NCBI RefSeq assembly: GCF_004152935.1
Contig: NZ_SETE01000006.1
Span: forward strand, 186,001 to 250,000
Source: Brumimicrobium glaciale
GTDB taxonomy: Bacteria > Bacteroidota > Bacteroidia > Flavobacteriales_D > Crocinitomicaceae
Length of the DNA: 64,000 nucleotides
Reading direction: 5' to 3'
The notes under the pieces: model-generated
Database searches by the model: none
What the model was told of the DNA's origin: nothing
Seen by the model: the letters and a program-made list of their open reading frames with translations, nothing else
Program-made: the position numbers and the translations under genes
In this document: one piece after another, positions 9,239 to 29,060 of the stretch
Position numbering within the stretch: the stretch's first letter is position 1
Layout: each line of letters opens with the position of its first letter

Positions 9239-9970
9239 ATGACTACTCATATAAGCGGGAATTTAAATATCATTCATAACAGAATTGTCAAAGCTTGTGA
9301 GAATTCTAAACGTAATCCGAAAGAGGTGCGTTTACTTTTGGCAACAAAAACTGTTGATTCCAATAAAATCCTTTTTGCACTAGAACAAGGCGAATTACTC
9401 ATCGGTGAAAACAAAGTCCAAGAGCTTACAGAAAAATGTACAGCTATAAAATCGTTGCATCCTGAAGTTCATTTTATAGGTCATTTGCAAAGTAATAAAA
9501 TCAAAGAAGTTCTAAAATGGGTGAGTTGTATTGAGACAATCGATAATCTTGATTTAGCAGAAAAACTACACCAAAGACTAACGTTTGAGAAAAAGGAAAT
9601 AGATATTTATATCCAAGTAAACACTTCTTACGAGGAAAGTAAATTCGGTGTCGCTCCGGAAGAAGCAATTGAATTAATTAAAAACGTTGCTTAATTTGAT
9701 AATATTCATATTAAAGGATTAATGACGATTGGATTATTTAGCGCAGAACCAGAGAAAGTTAGAAAATGCTTTAAACTCTTAAAGAGTATTCAATCGGAAG
9801 GTATAGCACTTAATTTACCAAACGTTGAGTTAAAAGAACTATCCATGGGAATGAGCGGAGATCTAGAAATTGCAATTCAAGAAGGTGCTACAATTATTAG
9901 AGTTGGTACCGCTATCTTTGGTGAAAGAATTTATCCTGATAGCTATTATTGGGATGAAGAGAAGAGTTAA
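9239..9970 (+). pseudogene. YggS-family PLP homeostasis protein split by an in-frame TAA
   Basis: YggS/PLPBP proteins bind pyridoxal phosphate and help balance vitamin B6 and amino acid pools. The reading frame is continuous from 9239 to 9970 except for one TAA at 9692-9694. The first 151 codons hold the PLP lysine (LLATKTVDS, K37), the GENKVQEL block and FIGHLQSNK. After the stop the same frame continues [13 protein letters not shown] and [17 protein letters not shown], then VGTAIFGER, which are the C-terminal family blocks. Removing the stop gives about 243 codons, close to normal length. Both halves look conserved, so the stop is recent, is a sequencing error, or is read through. A restart at the ATG 9722 could make only the C-terminal third. 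Confidence 0.88.
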
Positions 9971-10820
9971 TCTAAAAATATCCACCTTTTTAATCTGCGT
10001 TACATTGAGCGGTGTAGAATTATCATTTTTTGCCAGATCTTTTTGGTATTAAAACTAAATTAGTATTTATTGATTCAAATTTTCACTTGAAATAGTAGTT
10101 AGAACTATAAACAAGGGCTCTATATGAAATACTGTGGGTAATCAATTTTAATCCTTTAAAAAATTAATAGTGCTAGTACGAATTTAACTGTAACCTACAC
10201 GAGTTGTATTTTAAAGTATTTTTCCAAATCATCATTTTATTTTTACTGGAAAGTATATGGATATCTTTAATTCAGTTGGTTAGTCCCGTCGGGACGACAT
10301 ATTAACAGCCAAGGACGTAAGTCCTTGGTTTAAAACAAATAGATATAAAACAAAACCCAACAAAATCGGCCTAATTGCATGCAATTAGGCCGATTTTGTT
10401 GGGTTTTGTTTCGGTTTGTATCGTTTGGCGGATGGACTTACGTCCATCCCTATTAATATGCCGTCCCTCTGGGACTTATAACGATAAGTAATTAATTAAC
10501 AGGGGGTTATAAAATTAAGTGAAAAGTATTTTAATAGAAAGTTTCCATCTAAATAAAAGTAGAACCAAATTAACAATCGTTTAGCTTCAATTAAAACCAT
10601 AGATTTTAAATCTACCCACACAAAATCATATAGAACTATAAACTTGTTAGCACCAATTCTCTAAATCAGCTATTTTTATTTTTTTTCGATTCTCATTCGA
10701 TTTATAAGTGTCTTAAAATAGCAATTAATCAATTTTCTCCTTTTCTTAGTAGACTTTATTAGCAGCATCCAAAAGTGATTGCTTTGGTATTTTAATGTCG
10801 TATAAAATAAAACGATTTTG
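9971..10820. other. Gene-free stretch filled by a foldback element
   Basis: Most of this 850-base gap is the palindromic mobile element at 10117-10637. The flanks (9971-10116 and 10638-10820) are AT-rich, and I see no gene or clear promoter in them. Confidence 0.7.
10117..10637. mobile_element. Foldback (MITE-like) palindromic element, copy A
   Basis: About 521 bp with no coding potential. The ends form an imperfect inverted repeat of about 20 bases: CTATATGA-N5-TGTGGGTA at 10120-10140, matched in reverse complement at 10613-10633. Inside are two REP-like double hairpins facing each other: GTCCC/GGGAC (10283-10295) with CCAAGGAC/GTCCTTGG (10309-10328), and GGATGGAC/GTCCATCC (10430-10449) with GTCCC/GGGAC (10463-10475). 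They surround a 64-bp perfect palindrome (10348-10411). The flanks ATAAACAAG (10107-10115) and ATAAACTTG (10638-10646) look like a decayed target duplication. A homologous copy sits at 28306-28817. With no transposase of its own it would be non-autonomous. Confidence 0.72.
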
Positions 10821-18903: not shown

Positions 18904-19347
18904 CTACTCACTACTGACTTTATGTAATTCTAATAGTTGAATGAATTCACTTTTATCAGGTGCTGTGAGATTCCTAATATCTTGGTCTCTGATGAAATTG
19001 AAAACTTCCTCAATGTTTGTTGAATTAACTGAAAGACAACTGAAGTCTTCCTCCCAAATAGCCTGTGCTTGTGTTTCTAATTTCGCGTTAATAAAGTCAG
19101 CACTTACTTTTTGAATTTGGTTTACAATTTCCTGAACTGATTTCTCAGGATTGAGATTGAATAAACAATTCAAATGGGTTGATGAACAATTAATGATTCT
19201 AACAGAAGAACCCATCTTTATGAAAGTATCTTCAACAATCTGATTTACTTCTTCTCTAAAATAAGGCTGAATAACTGGGTTTTCATCTTTGGCAGTTATC
19301 AAACAATGTATCCATGCATGACAGTGAACTTGGTCTTCGAAATCCAT
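18904..19347 (-). CDS. RAYT-like Y1 transposase-family protein with degraded active site
   Basis: This 147-residue protein follows the REP-associated/IS200 Y1 transposase layout: CHAWIHCLITAKDENPVI corresponds to the family's IWIHLVWSTKNR block, then INCSSTHLNCLFNL, VQEIVNQIQKVSADFIN, IWEEDFSCLSVN and VFNFIRDQDI. The family's HUH metal motif DHVH reads THLN here (H58 kept, second His replaced by N60). The catalytic Tyr of the YIxxQ helix is Phe (F118, with Q122 kept). Both changes should abolish DNA cleavage, yet the frame is intact. It could be a domesticated DNA-binding protein or an early-stage relic. The family assignment is by motif recognition, not by search. Confidence 0.68.
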   Translation of the reverse strand: MDFEDQVHCHAWIHCLITAKDENPVIQPYFREEVNQIVEDTFIKMGSSVRIINCSSTHLNCLFNLNPEKSVQEIVNQIQKVSADFINAKLETQAQAIWEEDFSCLSVNSTNIEEVFNFIRDQDIRNLTAPDKSEFIQLLELHKVSSE

Positions 19348-20092
19348 AATATTTTGATTTTAAGGGTTAGTGATGACTAAGTTATGGTTTTTTATCCAAA
19401 TTCAAAAGGGAAGGGTTAATTTAATTTTGGTGTGCTCAATCCTCGCATCAGGTTATTGTGTTCTGTTTTTAAGATAATGATGACAAAAACTAAACGTAAT
19501 ATTATTTGGTTCTACCACGAATTTAGTGGAATATCGCATGCCATTGAGAATAAAGCTTAAAGACTTTTCTAGTAATTTACTTTTTTAAAATCCTCGATTA
19601 TCACAAAACTCCACAGGTGAAAAAATCCGAGATCATCTACTTCGACTTCACTCTGCACAAGCGCGTTGCTTGCAGTTCTTTCGCGGTGACTGAGCATGCG
19701 CTGCATTGAGCTTGTCGAAATGTCGAAGGCCCGCGTTCTATTACAGCGCAACCAAAAAGATCAACCAAAGCTCTTGGGTTTTTCATTTTGCATAAAGCTT
19801 GTTATTTCAATAAACCATTAAAATCAGGGTAGAACCAGTTTAATAAATGATTTTGCGATTTAAAGGGGTAGCCCTATTATTCTATTAATTGAACAATGTC
19901 AGATGGTTTTGACAGGAGAAATACTATATCAAGCAATGCGTCCTGTCAGGAGAGCTCTTTTTAATAGTATCAAATAGAAGCCTAAAAATCAGTAGACCAA
20001 AATAAATTAACCCAAGCTGAATTTAAAACCCATTAGTATTCTAAAGAAAATTGTAATTGATTTCGTCCTCAATACTCCTTACTCAAAACGCT
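19348..20092. other. Gene-free stretch with repeat debris
   Basis: No convincing gene is present. 19639-19728 contains inverted CTTCGAC/GTCGAAG words and the phrase AGCTTGTCGAA (19709-19719), whose complement TTCGACAAGCT recurs at 24401-24411 and 28904-28914. The open frame 19569-19751 on the minus strand lies across this repeat and is not credible. The rest is AT-rich with no clear signal. Confidence 0.6.
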
Positions 20093-28194: not shown

Positions 28195-29060
28195 AAACCT
28201 TGCATTGGTTAGGAAAATGATTCGCGAATTTTCGGATTTTTATAGAGTGGTATATATTGCTTTATTCCAGATGAATATCGAGGTTTAACATGAAAAACTT
28301 ACTTGGCTCCATATGAAATACTTAGGGTAATCAATTTTAATCCTTCGAAAAATTAATAGTTCTACTACGAATTTAACTGTAACCTGCACGAGTTGTATTT
28401 TAAAGTATTTATCAAAATAATTATTTACTTTTTACAAGTAAGCATATGGTGGTCTGTATTTCAATTGGTTAGTCCAGGCGGGACGGCATATTAATAGCCA
28501 AGGACGTTAGTCCTTGGTTTAAAACAAATAGATATAATACAAAATCGACCTAATTGCATGCAATTAGGTCGATTTTGTTGGGTTTTGTTTCGGTTTGTAT
28601 CGTTTGGCGGATGGACTTACGTCCATCCCTATTAATATGCCGTCCCTCTGGGAATTATAATGATAAATACTTAAGCAACAGGTGTTTATAAAATTAAGCG
28701 AATTAGATTTTTAATAGAAAGTATCCATTTAAATAAAAGTAGAACTAAATAAACAATCGTTTATCTTCAATTAAAACCATAGATTTTAAAACTACTCACA
28801 CAAAATCATATAGAACCACTTACTTGTAATTCGCTTTTAATTATAGAAAGTTCGGATAGCTTATAATCATAAAACTCTTTTTTCTCTACTTCGTCAGGTT
28901 CACTTCGACAAGCTCTGCAAAAGTGTGTAAATAATACACCGAATGCTATCTTAAAAAACTATTGAATACCTAAGTAGTTTTCTACTCTAATTTTGATCTT
29001 CTAATTAGGGCATCATAAAATTTATACTTCTTACATTTGGGGAATAATTTAAAATCTTTA
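28195..29060. other. Gene-free stretch filled by the second foldback element
   Basis: It contains foldback element copy B (28306-28817). The downstream part has the repeat word TTCGACAAGCT at 28904-28914 and a TACATTTG box at 29032-29039 that could serve the EI24-like gene, although no -33 element is seen. Confidence 0.65.
28306..28817. mobile_element. Foldback (MITE-like) palindromic element, copy B
   Basis: About 512 bp, homologous along its whole length to 10117-10637 with scattered substitutions and small indels. The central palindrome is 38 bp perfect here (28540-28577), because the left arm has lost bases that copy A keeps. The hairpin CCAAGGAC/GTCCTTGG and its mirrored partner GGATGGAC/GTCCATCC are intact. 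The two outer GTCCC/GGGAC stems are partly eroded. The element is flanked by identical ACTTACTTG at 28297-28305 and 28818-28826, which looks like a 9-bp target-site duplication. Confidence 0.75.

Follow-up and report, generated by a model that had tools for sequence, protein, structure and literature searches.

The element that occurs twice in the window, i.e. the whole stretch of 64,000 nucleotides of Brumimicrobium glaciale DNA that was analysed, is with good probability an ISL3-type MITE that carries a REP-pair element as a passenger. The outer element would derive from an insertion sequence of the ISL3 family by loss of the transposase; an ISL3-type DDE transposase could bind its two ends in trans and insert it with an 8-bp duplication; the likeness of the ends and the duplication are observed, and the enzyme is the supposed part. 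The inner REP pair with its palindrome would fold, when single-stranded, into hairpins such as those that HuH/Y1 transposases recognise. This inner element probably came into the MITE from outside, perhaps through a Y1 enzyme, and has since been carried by it to more than 20 sites, its location being identical in all 22 full-length copies. The ends and the mobility are of a known kind, and what is new is the combination of a REP pair and an ISL3-type MITE: by titles and abstract openings among the matches listed, with subscription journals outside the search, no literature joining the two was found.

Copies A and B and their family in the genome

The homology of copies A and B (Table 1) was borne out; in both, imperfect inverted repeats form the ends, a pair of double hairpins faces inwards and the palindrome at the centre is perfect. 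The original prediction had delimited the two stretches rightly except for their starts, given as 10117 and 28306, which lie one base earlier, at the first base of GGCTC. The direct repeat described around copy B is present with a length of 8 bp and not 9, the "ninth" G being the element's own first base, and the imperfect repeat around copy A, formerly read as a 7/9 match, agrees at 6/8 positions and has a G in excess; copy A alone therefore makes a weak case for a duplication. The folding energies of the inner parts, taken as single strands, were -66.8 kcal/mol for A (200 nt) and -55.1 kcal/mol for B (191 nt), corresponding to z values of -14.1 and -11.8 relative to shuffled sequences, and in each case none of 200 shuffles equalled the native fold.

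Table 1. Positions of the features of copies A and B in the window
Feature	Position	Strand	Remarks
Copy A, full-length MITE	10116..10637	+	522 bp
Copy A, left target duplication ATAAACAA	10107..10114	.	agrees with the right one at 6/8 positions; additional G precedes the element
Copy A, ISL3-like left end	10116..10143	+	complement resembles last codons of ISL3 transposase (..KIDYPQYFI, stop)
Copy A, REP unit, Rfam RF01687 Acido-Lenti-1	10282..10328	-	45.0 bits (gathering 37)
Copy A, central palindrome	10350..10409	.	perfect, 60 bp
Copy A, inverted partner REP unit	10430..10476	+	RF01687 31.5 bits (below gathering)
Copy A, right terminal inverted repeat	10612..10637	-	
Copy A, right target duplication ATAAACTT	10638..10645	.	
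Copy B, full-length MITE	28305..28817	+	513 bp
Copy B, left target duplication ACTTACTT	28297..28304	.	
Copy B, REP unit	28471..28517	-	RF01687 33.8 bits (below gathering)
Copy B, palindrome	28539..28578	.	perfect, 40 bp, shortened
Copy B, inverted partner REP unit	28609..28655	+	via alignment and pattern; no cmscan match
Copy B, right target duplication ACTTACTT	28818..28825	.	

The element had been taken for a two-copy one, which did not hold: the genome (4.27 Mb, 12 contigs) contains 22 full-length copies, A and B among them, and 12 further copies that are nested, deleted or shortened, or interrupted. The search of the genome by blastn gave 83 matches, 22 of which span the whole element; the figure of 83 is not a copy number, since fragments are among the matches and the palindromic interior also matches its own opposite strand. 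A scan for the terminal bases, which had been proposed as a check of mobility, located the left end with up to three mismatches at 26 places in forward and 22 in reverse orientation, and the reversed pattern at none. The family exhibits the features expected of bacterial MITEs, i.e. terminal inverted repeats, many copies and absence of a transposase gene. The full-length copies show a mean divergence of 5.3% from their consensus and of 8.8% from each other, from which we infer that the burst of spread was not recent. The interiors of the copies are mosaic, ends and interiors having been exchanged among them.

A terminator-like placement of the family was also considered and rejected. The nearest frames of at least 90 aa around the 22 copies were arranged > > in eight cases, < > in five, < < in five and > < in four, which, by the counts, gives no clear orientation bias.

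The inner element and the Y1 transposases

The inner element is composed of two inward-facing REP units on opposite strands around the perfect palindrome, each unit comprising two hairpins. The original prediction could not place the architecture in a named family, and both halves can now be given a name, the ends being ISL3-like and the REP units belonging to Rfam Acido-Lenti-1 (RF01687). In the excerpt of PMC2864571 this family figures among the non-coding RNAs, with Acidobacteria and Lentisphaerae as its hosts; its two-hairpin unit is the same as that of the MITE, the left unit of copy A alone exceeding the gathering score, and the difference is that here, in Bacteroidota, it forms part of mobile DNA and adjoins Y1 genes. 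Elsewhere a regulatory role as RNA has been ascribed to Acido-Lenti-1, as in Tannerella, where it lies next to protease genes (excerpt of PMC13298647).

The alignment of 14 units, namely 13 of the 49 distinct units and L046R, chosen for diversity, showed that 9 of the 13 pairs had changed on both sides. In total 87.9% of the cells pair, a share attained in none of 500 shuffles and inflated by the pre-filtering of the 49 distinct units for pairing; the stem changes are readable in the alignment itself. The stems vary in step, with GTCCC/GGGAC in the MITE and GTTCC/GGAAC and GCTCC/GGAGC in L046 and L069. An inverted pair of covarying hairpins, as expected for REP/REPIN sequences, is thus present in units that had been pre-selected for pairing, and the GTAG foot was found in the linker of one of the 49 distinct units and in L046R. 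The REPIN/REP dimers with RAYT (PMC3116915; excerpts of PMC3733652) have in common with the present element the two inverted REP hairpins and the link to a Y1 transposase gene, and REP dimers inside palindromes are on record for such systems. The inner element differs from them in the usual absence of the GTAG foot, the two-hairpin unit, the DDE-type MITE as carrier and the Y...Q..HH type of the Y1 genes.

The inner element is a separate component, since MITE copies exist that do not contain it (L039, L040, L033, short hairpin instead; L096 of Brumimicrobium oceani, none). Related inner elements were located at L042-L046, of which that of L046 lies inside a third MITE, that of L042 beside a second MITE and that of L044 near a MITE-like left end. 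Most of the inner copies found lie inside MITEs, and this, together with the exchange of ends and interiors among copies, would agree with an inner part that is only a structural passenger, captured through recombination between MITEs and never moved by a Y1 enzyme. Such an origin appears rather unlikely, as L043 and L045 carry the inner element and, over the 650-700 bp examined, no MITE ends, and the outer hairpins of L046 agree with units of an array at the Y1 locus L069 at 26 of 27 positions for either stem variant.

This genome possesses nine Y1_Tnp genes. In the array just mentioned, fifteen units of outer hairpin plus linker, with the second hairpin absent, surround the gene of L069; the other eight loci have 2, 1 and six times 0 units, one of the two at the second-ranked locus being unlike a REP, and simple base shuffling gave a mean of 0.36 units for the nine loci together. 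The L069 unit, searched in the window with up to three mismatches, was found in copies A and B only, and in none of 100 shuffles. The Y1 gene of L068 is flanked by another variant, which looks, on inspection by eye, like the inside of the element nested in L033.

A survey of Bacteroidota, in which up to 29 candidates were scored per genome, showed RF01687 at E up to 0.001 in at least 42 of 198 genomes, at least 21 of them above the gathering score, and Y1_Tnp was searched in 23 of the 42. The proximity count comprised 147 of the 150 listed matches (one each of G217, G158 and G317, outside the Y1 search, were dropped) and 114 of 122 Y1 places, the 8 weakest being left out. Among the matches listed, 15 of the 147 have a Y1 gene at a distance of up to 1 kb (0.46 expected from uniform placement), and these are distributed over 8 of the 23 genomes (0.45 expected). 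The excess is real and its size approximate, because the null ignores the intergenic location of the repeats and the clustering of mobile DNA. The B. glaciale genome contributes none of the 15, as none of its 23 listed matches is within 2 kb of a Y1 gene. Of 26 RF01687 loci that were inspected, four contained a Y1 gene. Acido-Lenti-1 units stand on both sides of the Y1 gene at L194 and L195 and on one side at L196-L200, with matching stems that are specific to each locus.

All nine Y1 genes situated within 1 kb of RF01687 matches bear the signature Y...Q..HH, as do four of the nine resident ones (L068-L071); it is not specific to the RF01687-linked genes, since it also occurs in 16 of 23 other Y1 genes examined. 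According to the excerpt of PMC6006769 it is the signature of TnpA-Y1 subclass 1.2, for which the table there gives no REP; the same signature is borne here by resident and by RF01687-adjacent Y1 genes. The L069 array and the excess near Y1 genes together suggest that the Acido-Lenti-1 "RNA" is probably a DNA REP of Y1 "subclass 1.2". We lean, by a little, towards the wider proposal that Acido-Lenti-1 is a DNA hairpin recognised by subclass 1.2 Y1 (HuH) transposases rather than an RNA gene, that it constitutes a REP system of Bacteroidota, and that in this genome its inverted pairs have become passengers of DDE-type MITEs, whereby a single small element would hold substrates of two unrelated transposition machineries.

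The RNA reading of Rfam would make the inner part a transcribed structured RNA, the MITE merely distributing a regulatory RNA or a bidirectional terminator. It agrees with the label of sRNA given to RF01687, with the conserved pairing and with the statement, in the excerpt of PMC3733652, that REPs are often said to be transcribed. It is nevertheless judged improbable in view of the two units per element on opposite strands, the neighbouring frames, the counts of which reveal no clear preference in orientation at the 22 copies, and the number of genomes in which RF01687, among the matches listed, adjoins a Y1 gene. With Acido-Lenti-1 as a DNA REP, an Rfam family of unknown function, so far read as regulatory RNA, would gain a probable identity, and a transposase subclass reported without a substrate would gain a probable one; moreover, the case would illustrate how a hairpin element can acquire another means of transport inside a DDE-type MITE. 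Both proposals, on the identity of RF01687 and on the Y1 substrate, are directly testable, and the former is the part most worth testing.

Ends, target duplications and mobility

The affinity of the ends was examined at 30 loci with an ISL3 transposase (PF01610) from other Bacteroidota. A likeness to the left end of at least 18/25 was found in two of them, L124 of genome G340 (21/25) and L104 (18/25), and the 73 other foreign loci (218 kb) reached 17/25 at the most. Twenty shuffled queries reached a maximum of 18/25 on the ISL3 loci, and the score of L104 alone is therefore weak, being no better than the best of these. The end of the ISL3 insertion sequence of G340, GGTTCTAAATGGAATACCGTGGGTAATC, agrees with the MITE consensus, GGCTCTATATGAAATACTGTGGGTAATC, in 24 of 28 bases, and it recurs on a second contig. 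It codes for the last residues of the transposase, ..LKFDYPRYSI, and the complement of the MITE reads ..IKIDYPQYFI; the last approximately 10 codons of the ISL3 transposase are thus alike in the MITE, but there is an overlap with the very sequence of the end. Among the remaining ISL3 loci, most differ at the C-terminus and have no end of this sort. Exact 8-bp duplications with inverted ends were present at the ISL3 loci L102, L103 and L106. The likeness of the left end to that of an ISL3 insertion sequence, including its last codons, indicates that the outer element is most likely an ISL3-type MITE.

An ISL3 transposase was sought in the B. glaciale genome itself, where PF01610 gave no match at E up to 0.001. 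A search of genome contigs with the Tnp protein gave nothing. A MITE of Microcystis, assigned to ISL3 in the excerpt of PMC11448079 (ITR GGCTCTTCG, 8-nt repeats), shares with the present one the GGCTCT ends, the 8-nt duplications, the absence of a transposase and a stem-loop. It is simple and 187 bp long, whereas the Brumimicrobium MITE has 510-530 bp and a REP pair and, unlike that of Microcystis, resides in a genome in which no ISL3 transposase was detected.

The larger relative with a transposase, the existence of which had been anticipated, was found at L031, and taken as a parent it is misleading, since its transposase belongs with its own kind of insertion-sequence end. This copy of 2.0 kb has both MITE ends and an 8-bp duplication around a gene for a 433-aa DDE_Tnp_1/IS4 transposase and a 62-aa MazE-like frame, an arrangement that would suit an autonomous parent and hence an IS4-type MITE family. 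Relatives of the transposase, with 22-39% identity, are located in insertion sequences; four of the five that have terminal inverted repeats (L080, L083, L084, L086) end in a CATAAGCG-type sequence and L085 in another, none of the five has GGCTCTATATGA ends, and the duplications measure 7-11 bp in four of them, L084 having none. An IS4-type end (16/18 to L083) follows directly after the gene in L031, with MITE sequence again from the very next base onwards; a left IS4-type end was not found in L031, and the transposase is present in a single copy in the genome. The IS4-type end inside a MITE copy largely refutes L031 as an autonomous parent, which is very improbable, and points to L031 as being most likely a MITE that was hit by another insertion sequence, since decayed.

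The 8-bp flanks match in at least 7 of 8 positions in 24 of the 34 copies, compared with 9 of 1,122 mismatched flank pairs taken from different copies, and in 8 of 8 positions in 17. The 34 copies are the 22 full ones, of which 18 and 13 reach these two levels, and the 12 variants, with L024 and L040, which have no recognisable end, kept in the count. At alternative lengths of 7, 9 and 10 bp only 3, 1 and 0 of the 34 copies had at most one mismatch, with means slightly above those of the controls; the target duplication is of fixed length, 8 bp. The 10 copies that have no 7/8 duplication include copy A and, with the end missing, L024 and L040. Spread by homologous recombination instead of transposition, to which the mosaic interiors might be attributed, is hardly credible, as the flanks differ and 8-bp duplications occur at most copies.

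Copy A is situated between the genes for an Ala_racemase_N protein, which we take to be yggS-like, and for an MgtE transporter. In Brumimicrobium oceani C305 (G002) the same two genes adjoin with a gap of 167 bp and the MITE is absent. The DNA identity of the flanks is 72% and 78% on either side, and the gap itself is too diverged to align, so that the place is empty at the level of the gene gap and not base-exactly. A 91-bp relic of the family lies in B. oceani on the other side of mgtE. The comparison of 38 own loci with 11 of B. oceani gave two comparable places. At the other (L039 and L089) MITEs stand beside the same orthologous gene in both species, with differing adjoining bases, which could mean that a number of the insertions are old or that this is a hot spot. 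An autonomous copy was sought at the 11 B. oceani loci, where no frame of at least 100 aa lay between paired ends; fewer than two ends were recognised at L093, L095, L097 and L098. The proposed reading as a mobile but non-autonomous element, MITE-like at its ends and REP-like within, is supported by the many copies, the 8-bp duplications, the gap in B. oceani and the occurrence of the inner module elsewhere.

Nested elements and neighbouring sequences

The consensus may itself be read as a MITE within a MITE: positions 54-451 (AGTTCTACTACG..AAGTAGAACC) are flanked by AAATTAAT and AAATTAAC, which match in 7 of 8 bases, and their end has a likeness of 20/24 to that of the third MITE. A copy of the outer element only was looked for and none was found, and this reading therefore stays a hint.

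The second MITE, with GGGTTACCAAGATAGGTCGTTAAT ends and a 10-bp duplication TTAAAGTATT, was located at L032:1452-2299, L033:1566-2328 and L034:1434-2127. It is nested at the identical base of the first MITE, and its interior is inverted or exchanged between the copies. In the window, 19508-19836 is occupied by another MITE-like element (GGTTCTACCACG..CAGGGTAGAACC), the ends of which also enclose the inner element in L046. It adjoins a Y1_Tnp paralogue (18904-19347, minus strand) whose motifs are, by eye, broken, with HLN in place of HuH and F in place of the catalytic Tyr (FIRDQ), and which is perhaps domesticated.

The yggS-like frame of the window (9239-9967, plus strand) contains an in-frame TAA at 9692-9694 that is absent in B. 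oceani; it is either a pseudogene or the result of a sequence error. In the sister species G001 (C1, 216-225 kb) the loci L053, L056 and L058 contain REP-like units about 525-540 bp apart, in an array that resembles a tandem one.
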